Part shown: positions 5,691-42,173 of the stretch, piece after piece
Position numbering within the stretch: the first letter of the stretch is position 1
Layout of the letters: each line of letters begins with the position of its first letter
Source of the DNA: Sinimarinibacterium sp. NLF-5-8
GTDB lineage: Bacteria > Pseudomonadota > Gammaproteobacteria > Nevskiales > Nevskiaceae
DNA length: 64,000 bases
Reading direction: 5' to 3'
Assembly (NCBI RefSeq): GCF_010092425.1
Contig: NZ_CP048030.1
Coordinates: 1,685,501-1,749,500, forward strand
Position numbers and translations under genes: made by a program
Notes under the pieces: generated by a model
The model's database searches: none
Told to the model about the DNA's origin: nothing
Seen by the model: only the letters and a program-made list of their open reading frames with translations

Positions 5691-5845
5691 CCCCTGTCCT
5701 TTTACCTGAGCGTTGCGCGCCTTCGGTGGCCAATTCAATGGCTCTCTCCAGAGTTGGACCTTGTCACACTCCTTTTACCTGAGCGATTCCGGGCGGTTTG
5801 CGCCTTCGGTGCTGCCATCAAAGGCAGTCTCTCGCATGACAAGGT
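5685..5845 (-). promoter_or_regulatory. Tandem glycine riboswitch upstream of gcvT
   Basis: Two aptamers can be read on the minus strand. The first (about 5762-5845) has GAGAGACTGCC, then GCACCGAAGGCGCAA, then CTCAGGTAAAAGGAGTG. The second (about 5685-5756) has CTGGAGAGAGCC, then CCACCGAAGGCGCGCAA, then CTCAGGTAAAAGGACAGG. The pairs ACCGAAGG/CTCAGGTAAAAGGA are hallmarks of the gcvT-type glycine aptamer; two in tandem is the common arrangement. A short hairpin enclosing the gcvT ribosome-binding site follows directly and is the likely expression platform. A possible -10 (TAAAAT, 5886-5891 on the minus strand) lies upstream, without a clear -35. Confidence 0.93.
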
Positions 5846-5963
5846 TTGATCCGTTGTTGTGCTTTAAACAAGCAAAACGGCGCGCATTTTAGCTGATCAT
5901 CATCGGAAAAGCATCGGATCAGCAAAGCTCAGCACGCAAGGCGCAACGCGCGCACTGCTGGGA

Positions 5964-30613: not shown

Positions 30614-30738
30614 AAATCAGCGCACAGGCAAAAATGTGCGCTTACTTTAGCGTGAGCCAGTGATTTTGCATCACCATCGGGCAGTCCATGGATACCGCCC
30701 GGTTACACTGTGCGGCTGTTGCCCTTTTTTGGATTGCC

Positions 30739-32619
30739 ATGCTGCTGGGTCTTAAAAACGCTTCGCTGCGGATTGCCAACACTCAATTGCTCGACGGGAT
30801 CGACTTTACGCTGACCGCAGGCGAGCGCGTCTGCCTGGTGGGGCGCAATGGCACGGGCAAGTCCACGTTGCTGCGCGTGATTGCCGGCGAGCAGGCCATC
30901 GACAGCGGTGAAGTCGTGCGCGCGCAAGGTCTGCGCCTCGCACGGATGCAACAAGACGTTCCGACATTGCAGGATGGCAGTGTCTACGATGTCGTCGTTC
31001 AAGGACTCGGCGAAACCGGACAGCTGGCCGCGCGCTATCACCAGCTGGCGCACGCTGTGGAGCCCGATCTGGATCAACTGGCTGCGGTACAGGCCGAAAT
31101 CGAAACGCGCAACGCCTGGACGATCGAAAGCCGCGTGCAGGCGGTGATCAATCAGCTCGAGCTACCCGCCGATGCGCGCTTCGAACGCCTTTCCGGCGGA
31201 CAAAAGCGCCGCGTACTGTTGGCACAGGCCGTCGTCACCGAACCCGATGTCCTGCTGCTGGATGAGCCCACCAACCACCTGGATATTCCCAGCATCCGCG
31301 CACTCGAAGCGCTGCTTCACAGTTACACCGGCGCGGTGGTGTTCATCAGCCACGACCGTGCATTTGTGCGCGCGCTGGCCACGCGAATCTGCGATCTGGA
31401 TCGCGGCAAACTCAGCTCATGGCCGGGCAACTGGGAAATGTACCAACGCGGCAAGGCCGAAGCCCTGCATGCCGAAGCGCGCGAACAGGCGCTGTTCGAT
31501 AAAAAACTGGCCCAGGAGGAAGCCTGGATCCGCAAAGGCGTTGAAGCCCGGCGCACCCGCAGCGCCGGACGGGTCAAGGCACTGCTGCAATTGCGCGAAC
31601 AGTTCAGCCAACGCCGCAACCGTGAAGGCAATGTCACTCTCAATGTGCAAGAAGCGCAGCGCTCAGGCCGCCTGGTCGCCCAACTGCAACAGGTTCATCA
31701 CCAATGGGAGCAACAAGTGCTGATCCGCCACCTCAGCACCACCGTCCTGCGCGGGGACAAAATCGGCATCATCGGCCCCAACGGCGCAGGCAAAACCACG
31801 CTGATCAACATTATTCTGGGCAAACTCACCCCCACCAGCGGCCACGCCGAACTCGGCAGCAAACTTGAAATTGCCTATTTCGATCAGTTGCGCAGCCCAC
31901 TGCAGGACGATGATCAAACCGCACTCGATGCCGTCGGCAATGGCAAGGAATTTGTTGAAATCAACGGCGCGCGCCGTCATGTCATCAGTTATTTGCAGGA
32001 TTTTCTGTTTACCCCCGACCGCGCCCGTGTGCCAGTGCGCGTGCTCTCCGGCGGCGAACGCAGCCGGCTGATGCTGGCACAGCTGTTTTGCACGCCATCC
32101 AACCTGTTGGTGCTGGATGAGCCAACCAATGACCTGGACATGGAAACCCTGGACTTGCTCGAAGAACGTCTGGTCGAGTACGCCGGCACGGTTCTCATCG
32201 TCAGCCACGATCGTGAGTTTTTAGATAACGTCGTCACCCGCAGTCTGGTTTTTGAAGGTCAGGGTGAAGTCGGCGATTACGTCGGCGGTTATAGCGACTG
32301 GCTACGCCAGCACCGACCCGCTGCCTCACCCCCTGCGCCTGAGCGTGCAGCCACAAAATCAACCCTCCCCGCCCCGCCCCCGGCGGTGCCTTCCGTCGCC
32401 AAACTCACCAGCAAGCAACTGCGCGAGCTCGACGGGCTGCCGCGCAAGATCGAAACCCTGGAAGCCGAACAAAGCGAACTGGCCGAACACATGAGCCAGG
32501 CCGACTTCTATCAAGGCAACCCCGCGCACATCGACAAAGCCCAGCAACGCCTCACCGAACTGGCCGAGCAACTCAGCCAGGCCTACGCGCGCTGGGAAGC
32601 CCTGGAATCGCTGCGCTAA
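30739..32619 (+). CDS. uup: ABC-F family ATP-binding protein Uup
   Basis: A 626-residue protein with two ABC ATPase domains and no membrane segments. Domain 1 has Walker A GRNGTGKST, signature LSGGQKRRV and VLLLDEPTNHLD; domain 2 has GPNGAGKTT, LSGGERSRL and LLVLDEPTNDLD. A Pro/Ala linker and a C-terminal coiled coil (about 555-625, LSQAYARWEALE) are typical of Uup, which acts on ribosomes and influences transposon precise excision and Holliday-junction handling. ATG 30739 was chosen; a longer frame from 30688 adds 17 residues without support. Confidence 0.93.
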   Translation: MLLGLKNASLRIANTQLLDGIDFTLTAGERVCLVGRNGTGKSTLLRVIAGEQAIDSGEVVRAQGLRLARMQQDVPTLQDGSVYDVVVQGLGETGQLAARYHQLAHAVEPDLDQLAAVQAEIETRNAWTIESRVQAVINQLELPADARFERLSGGQKRRVLLAQAVVTEPDVLLLDEPTNHLDIPSIRALEALLHSYTGAVVFISHDRAFVRALATRICDLDRGKLSSWPGNWEMYQRGKAEALHAEAREQALFDKKLAQEEAWIRKGVEARRTRSAGRVKALLQLREQFSQRRNREGNVTLNVQEAQRSGRLVAQLQQVHHQWEQQVLIRHLSTTVLRGDKIGIIGPNGAGKTTLINIILGKLTPTSGHAELGSKLEIAYFDQLRSPLQDDDQTALDAVGNGKEFVEINGARRHVISYLQDFLFTPDRARVPVRVLSGGERSRLMLAQLFCTPSNLLVLDEPTNDLDMETLDLLEERLVEYAGTVLIVSHDREFLDNVVTRSLVFEGQGEVGDYVGGYSDWLRQHRPAASPPAPERAATKSTLPAPPPAVPSVAKLTSKQLRELDGLPRKIETLEAEQSELAEHMSQADFYQGNPAHIDKAQQRLTELAEQLSQAYARWEALESLR

Positions 32620-33000
32620 TCCGCAATTGACCGGCTCTGCACCAGCCGCAATCGCCGCCACGCATGAAAGGTTGAGTGATCGCAAGCCCCGCGCGGCACA
32701 GCAAACAGCCTCTTTTCAGCACATCTGCGCGCGCGATTAAACAGCCCGCAGAGCACCGCAACGACCGCAGGCAGGCCTGCGCGCCCGCACAAAAAGAAAC
32801 TTTTTGCATTGTTGTCAGTCTGATGCCGTCGAGTTCATACGATACCGGCACCAGAATCCCCCTTTAAGGATGTCCTTCGATACGCCCCACAGTGGCTGTC
32901 AACCAAATGTTGCAACGCACCAATCAAATGACGAGTGCGTCACATAAAAACAGCTCAACCAACTTAACAATATGATTTATATCTGTTTTTAGAATAAACG
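32620..33000. other. Intergenic region, AT-rich toward its right end
   Basis: No coding region is supported between uup and the promoter at 33006. The last 60 bases (about 32940-33000) are AT-rich (AACAATATGATTTATATC), unlike the GC-rich surroundings, and could act as an UP element for the promoter that follows. Confidence 0.5.
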
Positions 33001-33005
33001 AAGAT

Positions 33006-33034
33006 TTGACAACGGGCTTTTACATCTTTATACT
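33006..33034 (+). promoter_or_regulatory. Near-consensus sigma-70 promoter for a small RNA
   Basis: TTGACA (33006-33011), a 17-base spacer and TATACT (33029-33034), preceded by AT-rich DNA. This is the strongest promoter seen in the window and no protein gene follows on this strand before a terminator. Confidence 0.8.
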
Positions 33035-33040
33035 GCACTG

Positions 33041-33164
33041 CAACATAACTCGAGCATAAAGAAACCCGGCAAGCTGGGTTGCTATACCGGGTTAGGTGAG
33101 TCTCCTCCAGAAAGGCCTAGCGCCTTTCTCGCACCTTGCCCCCGGAATCCGGGGGCTTCTTTTT
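33041..33164 (+). ncRNA. Candidate small RNA of about 125 nt with anti-Shine-Dalgarno bulge
   Basis: It starts about 7 bases after the TATACT box and ends in an intrinsic terminator (GCCCCCG/CGGGGGC, 33138-33156, then TTCTTTTT). Within it are a stem AACCCGG...CCGGGTT (about 33064-33094) and a second hairpin GAAAGGC/GCCTTTC (33110-33128) closed by GGTG/CACC. The 5' side of the second hairpin bulges out TCTCCTCC (33101-33108), which complements the AGGAGG ribosome-binding consensus. No open reading frame of note. I do not recognise the family. A trans-acting sRNA blocking translation is the simplest reading; a riboswitch is less likely because no gene follows downstream on this strand. Confidence 0.65.
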
Positions 33165-33259
33165 GCCCATACGTGTGGGCACAACAATCTCCCCAAAAAA
33201 TCTTAACGCTGACGCAATATAGGCCGTCAAGGCCAACTTGTTGGCGATTGATTTACTGT

Positions 33260-33293
33260 AAAGGCCGGATTCTGGCTGAGAATCCGGCCTTTT
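33260..33293. terminator. Bidirectional terminator after pnp
   Basis: AAAGGCCGGATTCT and AGAATCCGGCCTTTT arms with a 5-base loop. On the minus strand it lies 21 bases past the pnp stop, with a short TTT tail; on the plus strand the tail is TTTTT, so it can also back up the sRNA terminator. Confidence 0.85.
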
Positions 33294-33313
33294 TCAACCC
33301 TTCGTCGCGTTTT

Positions 33314-35419
33314 TCAGTCCGTCTGTACGTCGATCGCCTTCATGGACAGGCGAATCTTGCCATCGCGGCTGACTTCGAGCACTTTGACGCGCACGGTTTC
33401 GCCCTCTTTAACCACGTCCTCAACCTTCTCGACGCGCTTGTCGGCCAGCTGGGAGATGTGCACCAGGCCATCCTTGCCGGGGGCGATGGTGACGAACGCC
33501 CCAAAGTCCATGATCTTGGCAACCTTGCCTTCGTAGATCGCGCCCACTTCGATGTCGCGGGTCAGCGTCTCGATGCGATGAATCGCGGCTTCAGCTGCTG
33601 TGCCGTCGGCGGCAGCAATTTTGATCGTGCCGTCATCATCAATATCAATGCTGGTGCCGGTTTCACGCGTAATCGCCTGAATCGTGGAGCCACCTTTGCC
33701 GATGACTTCGCGGATTTTGTCCGGATGAATTTTGATGGTGGTGATGCGCGGCGCGTAGCGCGACAGATCGCTGCGCGGCTTATCCAGCACCTGATTCATC
33801 TGCTCAAGAATGTGCAGACGACCCGCTTTGGCTTGCGTCAGCGCCTGCGCCATGATTTCGCCGGTAATGCCGGCGACTTTGATGTCCATCTGCAGCGCGG
33901 TCACACCTTCTTCGGTGCCGGTGACTTTAAAGTCCATATCGCCCAGGTGATCTTCATCACCCAGAATATCGGTCAACACCGCCCAGCGCTCGCCTTCCAG
34001 GATCAAGCCCATGGCAACGCCAGCAACCGGAGCCTTGATCGGCACGCCCGCATCCATCAGCGCCAGCGTCGCGCCGCAAACCGAGGCCATTGAGGAGGAG
34101 CCGTTGGATTCAGTGACTTCCGACACCACGCGCACCACATACGGGAACTCTTTGCTCAGATCGGGCATGACTGCGGCCACACCGCGCTTGGCCAAACGGC
34201 CGTGGCCGATTTCGCGGCGCTTGGGCGCATTCATGCGGCCGGTCTCGCCAACGCAGTACGGAGGAAAGTTGTAATGGAACAGGAAGTGGTCATGCCACTC
34301 ACCTTCCACCGCATCAATGATCTGATAATCCTTGCCGGTGCCCAGTGTGGTCACGGCCATCACCTGGGTTTCCCCGCGGGTAAACAGCGCCGAACCATGC
34401 GCGCGCGGTAACACACCCGTGGTCATCGCCAGCGGACGCACGGTCACGCGATCACGGCCGTCGATGCGCGGCTGACCGTCCAAAATGCGGTTACGCACGA
34501 TTTTGGCTTTGAGGTCTTCCAGCGCTGATTTGATCTGGTTATCGGTAAACACAGCATCTTCCGGGCGCGCGGCCTTGGCCTGCTGGGTGACTTCGTCCAG
34601 CTTGGCGTAGCGGCTTTGCTTGTCGGTGTGGGTGTAAGCCTCGGCAATTGCGGCCTCAAACTGCGCCACAAACGCATGCACCGCCGAGGTGTCGGCCGGT
34701 TGCCACACCCACTGCGGCTTGCCGGCCTCGGCCACGAACTCATTGATGGCCTGAATCGCTGCCTGCATCTGCTCGTGGCCAAACATCACGGCACCCAGCA
34801 TGACCGGCTCCGGCAGCACCTTGGCTTCGGATTCCACCATCAGCACAGCATCTTTGGTGCCCGCAACAACCAACTCAAGGTCAGAGGTTTCCAGCTCGGT
34901 TTTGGACGGGTTGAGGATGTAATTGCCATCCTTGTAACCCACTTTTGCTGCGGCAATCGGCCCCATGAACGGCACGCCGGACAGCGCCAGCGCAGCAGAC
35001 GCGCCAAGCATCGCCGGGATATCACCATCCACCTGCGGGTTGAGCGACATTACCGTCGCCACAATCTGGATTTCGTTATAAAAACCTTCGGGGAACAGCG
35101 GCCGAATCGGACGGTCGATCAGGCGCGAGGTGAGGGTTTCTTTTTCGGTAGGCCGGCCTTCACGCTTGAAAAAGCCACCGGGAATACGGCCACCCGCGTA
35201 GAACTTTTCCATGTAATCAACCGTGAGCGGGAAAAAGTCCTGCTCGGGCTTGGCTTCTTTTTTGGCCACCGCGCTGACCATGACCACGGTTTCGTCGATG
35301 GTCACCAGCACTGCCGCAGAGGCCTGCCGCGCCACAGCGCCGGTTTCAAGCGTCACCGTACGGTTGCCGTATTGGAAGGTTTTGCGGATCGCCGCAGCAG
35401 GAGTTGCAGGTACTGACAT
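33314..35419 (-). CDS. pnp: Polyribonucleotide nucleotidyltransferase (PNPase)
   Basis: A 701-residue phosphorolytic 3'-5' exoribonuclease of the RNA degradosome. Order of domains: RNase PH 1 (about 5-220), helical linker, RNase PH 2 (about 310-545), KH ([20 protein letters not shown]), S1 (about 620-690, [20 protein letters not shown]). Catalytic Asp region [17 protein letters not shown] is present. ATG 35419 with a GAGAAA ribosome-binding site gives [19 protein letters not shown]; the frame is open further upstream. It follows rpsO, as in E. coli, with the rpsO terminator between. Confidence 0.98.
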
Positions 35420-35552
35420 GTTATTTCTCACGATTTCATAATTTGAGACGCGCGCACAGGTATCATCACCGACACCCGTAGCACATCCGATAAGCCACAC
35501 AGGCCGCGCGGATCCATCCGATCACCCCGGCATTTTGCGCGGCAAACAACGC

Positions 35553-42096: not shown

Positions 42097-42173
<77 letters not shown>

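Follow-up and report, generated by a model that had tools for sequence, protein, structure and literature searches.

Between a uup-like ABC-F gene (30688–32619, plus strand; an open reading frame whose name is taken from the original prediction) and the convergent gene pnp (33314–35500, minus strand; an open reading frame supported by tblastn against the loci of relatives), the 64,000-nt stretch of the Sinimarinibacterium sp. NLF-5-8 genome analysed here (the window, to which positions refer unless stated otherwise) carries a strong promoter that is followed by no protein gene, which raises the question of what is made from this promoter and what controls it. As originally predicted, a sigma-70-type promoter matching 11 of 12 consensus positions (33006–33034, plus strand; TTGACA −35 box at 33006–33011, a spacer of 17 nt, TATACT −10 box at 33029–33034) precedes a structured RNA of about 125 nt and a terminator, and no ORF of at least 60 aa is found inside the element. 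The promoter is the top scorer of four promoter-like sites between 31000 and 36000, a region for which shuffled versions yield a mean of 1.9 such sites (sd 1.7). The predicted small RNA (33041–33164, plus strand), the start of which was placed according to the −10 box, has a folding energy of −49.1 kcal/mol (z = −3.18), a value equalled by one of 200 shuffles. On the same strand it comprises a 5′ hairpin ACCCGG...CCGGGT (33064–33092), which by sequence and alignments is similar in close relatives only, an anti-Shine-Dalgarno seed UCUCCUCC (DNA TCTCCTCC; 33101–33108), which is unpaired in the minimum-energy fold, a conserved hairpin AGAAAGGC...GCCTTTCT with compensatory changes (33109–33129), a conserved linker CGCACCTT (33130–33137), of which GCA is invariant in two alignments, and an intrinsic terminator (33138–33164) with the stem GCCCCCGGAATCCGGGGGC at 33138–33156 and the tail TTCTTTTT.

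With respect to known RNA families, a search of the entire window with Rfam 15 at gathering thresholds returned only a tRNA and a glycine riboswitch and nothing at the element, in line with the original statement that its family was not recognised. The riboswitch aptamer (5757–5846, minus strand) reaches 60 bits, with a gathering score of 32, and the tRNA gene (42100–42173, minus strand) scores 61.7 bits and has, by eye, the anticodon loop CAU. Below the thresholds, the interval 32950–33310 gives nine weak matches at E ≤ 10; these, including GadY with 22.0 bits (gathering score 45), were dropped as far sub-threshold chance matches, with the exception of RF02278 (see below).

The conservation of the element in related genomes shows that it is not a product of chance. 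In a set of 41 genomes, in which the window's own genome (G000) is counted, a 171-base DNA query has matches in all 41 at E ≤ 1, with the best matches in the other 40 having E-values of at most 3.6e-5. R1, a covariance model of the 3′ half of the element built from 30 of the matched loci, recovers the element in all 41 genomes, with a total of 63 matches at E ≤ 0.01, and 52 of these score at least 50 bits; the 30 source sequences match by construction, and further copies were found as well. When applied to a sample of 369 genomes of the class, R1 matches 11 at E ≤ 0.001, four of which, the own genome among them, belong to the same order; the sRNA also extends to a small number of further families of Gammaproteobacteria. 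Scanning named genomes for a pattern of the element yielded 49 stretches, mostly labelled Solimonas, Sinimarinibacterium, Fontimonas, Nevskia, Hydrocarboniphaga, Panacagrimonas, Salinisphaera and similar, a few labelled only as Gammaproteobacteria or bacterium, and one as Endozoicomonas. The family core has the constant order UCUCCUCC, hairpin, CGCAC(C)UU and terminator, and over 52 copies the seed is unpaired with a probability of 0.77 on average (minimum 0.31).

Covariation in related genomes, a check proposed together with the original prediction, was assessed on 35 distinct cores out of 37 prepared (L323 and L143 were excluded). In the hairpin 3′ of TCTCCTCC, five of eight pairs are changed on both sides, which none of 500 shuffles reaches. 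The true register has 93.8% of its cells paired and registers slid by one to three columns at most 61%, with the register at −2 containing 14 double-changed cells, the same number as the true one; in one subgroup the stem is shifted by one base (GAAAGGCC/GGCCUUUC) and was scored as mismatches. The sRNA gene is therefore real and widely conserved, and its promoter, fold, R1 matches and covariation jointly bear out the view of an independent, terminated and structured sRNA with an exposed anti-Shine-Dalgarno motif.

In turn, a functional meaning of the position beside pnp, as hinted at originally, is not supported, and this neighbourhood follows from the gene order of the relatives. The DNA-binding domain (PF07879) of PhaR, a regulator that senses granules of polyhydroxyalkanoate (PHB), is encoded in 39 of the 41 genomes, being missing from G032 and G035, and in 32 of the 41 a same-strand copy of the sRNA lies 606–2831 bp from the start of this domain. 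For 30 of the 32, the distance to the closest copy is 606–774 bp, which places it just downstream of phaR. The nine genomes without such linkage are G000, G001, G009, G011, G016, G022, G027, G032 and G035, and pnp is located beside the sRNA in seven, the exceptions being G001 and G009. Amongst the named loci, 39 of 49 have phaR and 40 of 49 have pnp in the fetched stretch. Therefore, the common order is phaR – sRNA – convergent pnp, and the sRNA lies between uup and pnp because the window genome lost the phaR part of this order: the uup-like gene occupies the place where most relatives have phaR, pnp was kept, and the genome's own phaR is found elsewhere (G000:C1:1373149). In G322, a genome of another family, the order is thiolase – phaR – sRNA – pnp, and in G393 it is thiolase – phaR – phasin-like gene – sRNA. 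The frequency of pnp at the named loci might also suggest a cis-acting element, i.e., a convergent transcript that tunes the pnp mRNA or its 3′ end. However, the RNA stops at its own terminator 150 bp short of the end of pnp, five extra Solimonas copies (L152, L153, L157, L188 and L191) reside in 8-kb stretches with neither phaR nor pnp, and the 3-kb stretch fetched for L144 (G393) yielded no pnp. Owing to the terminator and to the copies with no pnp nearby, cis-regulation of pnp was set aside as highly improbable. As a side observation, a similar membrane-protein ORF adjoins four of the five extra Solimonas copies, and at L143 and L144 the sRNA directly follows the phasin-like gene and seemingly lacks a promoter of its own, which suggests its release from the 3′ end of the phasin-like mRNA.

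The link to phaR and, above all, a putative operator, which we regard as the key to the locus, were both missed by the original prediction and are added here. The −10 box of the sRNA promoter runs straight into TGC-RNY-GCA, the consensus of PhaR operators, and the predicted operator TGCACTGCAACA (33034–33045, plus strand) overlaps the −10 box and the start site. A second PhaR-type site, TGCGTTGCAACA (32908–32919, minus strand), was found by pattern search about 90 bp before the −35 box. For comparison, the site footprinted for the Herbaspirillum PhaR reads TG[N]TGC[N]3GCAA (PMC3206438), that of Ralstonia YTKNTGCRNYGCANMAR (PMC12849132), and the sites in Sinorhizobium are TGC-N3-GCA palindromes (PMC12542648). 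TGC-RNY-GCA occurs within 150 nt upstream of 47 of the 52 copies of the sRNA, with 0.44 expected from shuffles of the same stretches. Two features expected of a member of the PhaR regulon are present, namely a predicted operator in a position to block the promoter, being joined directly to the −10 box in 46 of the 52 copies, and PhaR in the same genome, i.e., in the own genome and in 39 of the 41 relatives.

Counted by genome, the site is present in 39 of 41. It is missing from G032 and G035, the very two genomes without a PF07879 match; in both, the promoter (TTGACT/TATACT) is kept. As these two genomes are related, the joint loss of site and PhaR may be one event, and the co-occurrence of PhaR and site amongst the relatives (p = 0.0012) is computed ignoring kinship. 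A pooled table including other families (p ~1e-7) was set aside because the genomes are related and because of the way in which G504 was counted: this genome, an assembly 88% complete in which PF07879 was not found, had been tabulated as lacking both PhaR and site, yet it has PhaR-type sites at the promoter of a phasin-like gene. In other families, TGC-N3-GCA is missing within 150 nt of the core from the four PhaR-less genomes G419, G526, G617 and G154, and in G322, where phaR adjoins the sRNA, the site is fused to TATGAT. The Salinisphaera UBA1666 locus has no phaR in its stretch and likewise no site. The site is absent from four of the 39 named phaR-adjacent copies (L150, L168, L179 and L197) and from L290, L310 and L322, though these genomes have PhaR.

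Since the sRNA survives in the PhaR-less genomes G032, G035, G419, G526, G617 and G154, and since gene order can persist by descent, it could be argued that it is a housekeeping-type anti-Shine-Dalgarno RNA and that its place beside phaR is inherited synteny with no regulatory meaning. However, the operator-like site also accompanies copies far from phaR, namely that in the window and all five extra Solimonas copies, and it is likewise found at betaproteobacterial RNAs (see below), so that we regard this explanation as improbable. The persistence of the sRNA in genomes lacking PhaR nevertheless implies that it has some role outside PhaR control and that its targets matter beyond storage.

The motif also finds support in the window genome. 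Its own PhaR scores 148.3 bits with TIGR01848 (cut-off 109.45), and TGCAATGCAACA lies just upstream of its gene. The promoter of its own PF09361 phasin (1667930–1668193 in genome coordinates) consists of TTGACA, 17 nt and a TATGAT running into TGCGCTGCAACA, which is followed by a second PhaR-type site, and thus has the same layout as the sRNA promoter. The same layout with a double site is seen at the phasin-like gene ahead of the sRNA in G393 and G504; no Pfam or NCBIfam family fits the encoded protein, and the designation phasin-like therefore rests on its composition, place and promoter. Phasin operators as a general rule were rejected, as PhaR-type sites occur at 10 of 30 fetched PF09361 loci and at none of the other 20.

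As the site overlaps both the −10 box and the start in 46 of the 52 copies, the layout favours repression, and its absence where PhaR is absent speaks against a different regulator reading TGC-RNY-GCA. Accordingly, activation by PhaR or control by such another regulator, which would still leave a carbon-state RNA of other sign or signal, appears to us rather unlikely, although PhaR activates phaP3 in Ralstonia (PMC12849132) and although the window genome may not make polyhydroxyalkanoate, as judged from its gene content: it scores 23.8 bits with PhaC_N (cut-off 23.7) and 166.5 and 165 bits with class III PhaC (cut-off 365.3). Amongst the relatives, 18 of 41 have no PhaC_N match at E ≤ 0.001, and in some of these species PhaR could respond to a different signal.

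Taken together, the linkage to phaR and the operator-like site make it probable that the element encodes a trans-acting sRNA of the PhaR regulon, which would be repressed by PhaR, freed at granule formation and block ribosome-binding sites with UCUCCUCC. As long as granules are lacking, PhaR would occupy TGCACTGCAACA, thus cover both the −10 box and the start site, and keep the sRNA gene off. Once polyhydroxyalkanoate granules form, PhaR would relocate to them, as published for other species, and its release would allow the sRNA to be made together with phasin and PhaR, the promoters of which have sites of this type in the window genome. In this state, the sRNA would present UCUCCUCC in single-stranded form beside its stable hairpin and pair with Shine-Dalgarno sequences of the GGAGGAGA type, so that a number of mRNAs for metabolic and envelope proteins would be translated less. 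The PhaR-like site on its promoter accordingly suggests that the sRNA probably turns down other genes when carbon storage starts. In this way, a likely regulator and role can be assigned to an sRNA family, represented in, e.g., Solimonas and Salinisphaera, that stays below all Rfam 15 thresholds.

The proposal that the seed could pair with the ribosome-binding sites of many mRNAs appears less far-reaching in the window, where a complement of at least 6 nt lies before the start of two of 52 putative genes of at least 100 aa. One of the two has CCCAGGAGGAT, and from the start of its protein we take it to be bioA, the example given originally. On the genome scale, the pattern GGAGGAGA-N3..10-ATG was run in nine genomes and has 11 matches in the own genome compared to one for the reversed pattern. 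The sites followed were all ten distinct ones of the own genome, 25 of 25 in G004 and 25 of 26 in G005, and about nine of these 60 head frames shorter than 40 aa, which are probably false starts. BLAST relatives with the same seed match were found in three of three genomes both for a wax-ester synthase/diacylglycerol acyltransferase (own copy PF03007) and for a DUF1329 protein (own copy PF07044), and in two of three, at 25% identity, for a DUF1302 protein. As these matches may merely reflect conserved strong ribosome-binding sites, the putative targets are to be taken as leads only. The phasin mRNA might seem an obvious target; it is not claimed here, as the TTTTTTGGAGTTTT of the own phasin matches the seed poorly.

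Amongst known systems, the nearest kin are MmgR, the alpha-r8 sRNA of Sinorhizobium meliloti, and the RF02278 RNAs of Betaproteobacteria. According to the published accounts, MmgR is repressed by AniA (PhaR), is tied to phasin levels and the amount of PHB, and exposes an anti-Shine-Dalgarno motif in a loop, and its promoter, which harbours a PhaR palindrome TGCACCGCA, is shifted by purified PhaR (PMC8401924, PMC12542648, PMC7143759). The window promoter likewise carries a PhaR-type palindrome, TGCACTGCAACA at 33034–33045, to be set beside the printed mmgR site (PMC12542648). However, MmgR is described as an NtrC-activated RNA of 77 nt with three stem-loops and partial SuhB similarity (PMC8401924, PMC7143759), whereas the window sRNA has about 125 nt and another fold, shows no SuhB amongst the nine Rfam matches at E ≤ 10, and belongs to a family usually encoded next to phaR. 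The NfeR1 (alpha-r14) and AbcR RNAs also occur in multiple copies, expose anti-Shine-Dalgarno motifs and silence metabolic and transport mRNAs (PMC7143759), but differ in structure and regulation, and no similarity of the element to them was reported in the Rfam searches of the window and of 32950–33310. We class the window sRNA as a separate gammaproteobacterial family, probably of the PhaR-repressed anti-Shine-Dalgarno kind known from MmgR.

The RF02278 group (Betaproteobacteria toxic sRNA, or double-hairpin RNAs) includes NcS03, NcS05, NcS27 and NcS62, bdhR1 and Bordetella S17. Its core, with (U)GUCUCCUCC first, followed by a hairpin and a terminator, has the same order as the window sRNA, in which a UCUCC(UCC) seed precedes hairpin and terminator; in both groups the RNAs are often multi-copy and are predicted to act on ribosome-binding sites. 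In contrast, the first hairpin differs, and in the betaproteobacterial RNAs the distance from the core back to the PhaR-type site is greater. With RF02278 (gathering score 50), the window scores 14.5 bits, its genome has no match at E ≤ 0.001, and the best gammaproteobacterial relatives tested reach 27–29 bits (L144 and L202). Across six related loci, RF02278 and RF02837 (anti-hemB) score 23.6–29 bits, with thresholds of about 50. The likeness to Burkholderia RNA 7 (anti-hemB, RF02837) amounts to 23.6–25.2 bits at L144 1495–1569 and at L202 1079–1142 and 1453–1516, and this RNA is possibly another member of the wider group. R1 in turn matches the element weakly, with 9.0–21.5 bits, in all 18 RF02278 loci. 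We read this as shared architecture, with common descent as a possibility.

In 249 genomes of the phylum, RF02278 has a match in 19, of which 11 are over the cut-off. TGC-RNY-GCA lies within 130 nt upstream of 10 of the 18 copies over the cut-off, with 0.09 expected, corresponding to nine of the 11 genomes. PhaR is encoded in ten of these 11, and the PhaR-less G259 is also site-less; in G122, PhaR is present and the site absent. One genome, G210, holds nine RF02278 matches (L045, L057 and L062–L067 among its loci), eight of them over the cut-off and two with a PhaR-type site. In Burkholderia cenocepacia, Sass and colleagues described an unnamed upstream motif shared by three of four double-hairpin RNAs, and reported that the three RNAs measured increase in glucose medium and starvation and that overexpression of ncS27 slows growth; growth inhibition by overexpressed RF02278 RNAs is reported for Burkholderia and E. 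coli (PMC5688073), and no comparable toxicity in E. coli was found for Bordetella S17S. The main text of PMC5688073 does not contain the word PhaR, and in the passages of open-licence papers examined here PhaR control is described for MmgR and not for the RF02278 group or a gammaproteobacterial sRNA. For the betaproteobacterial double-hairpin RNAs, the testable hypothesis follows that PhaR and the PHB state govern them.

It is tempting to go one step further and to assume, as a tentative proposal that we hold with somewhat less than even confidence, one circuit in Proteobacteria, in which PhaR represses an anti-Shine-Dalgarno sRNA, i.e., MmgR in Alpha-, the RF02278 RNAs in Beta- and the window family in Gammaproteobacteria, and in which this sRNA is the broadcast arm of carbon storage that silences competing uses of carbon. 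If so, the silenced uses would here include the wax-ester/triacylglycerol synthase and the DUF1302 and DUF1329 envelope proteins, so that one storage polymer would be preferred to another. In this view, the betaproteobacterial RNAs inhibit growth because a storage-state brake is applied at an inappropriate time. Storage granules would thus signal to translation via RNA in all three classes, a point of relevance to strains for bioplastic production.

Finally, three further loci of the own genome deserve mention. The perfect palindrome TGTTGCATTGCAACA (G000:C1:2321267–2321281; L227) at the start of an ORF and a further occurrence of TGCACTGCAACA (G000:C1:2558156–2558167; L230) before an ORF are possible PhaR sites; the encoded proteins are presumably PriA-like and a cbb3 oxidase subunit, respectively. 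A second, diverged copy of the sRNA (G000:C1:104327–104396, minus strand; L148), which lies near a gene that we take to be LysR-like, has no TGC-N3-GCA within 150 nt, scores 42.8 bits with R1 and has retained the hairpin in the compensated form AGATCCC/GGGATCT.
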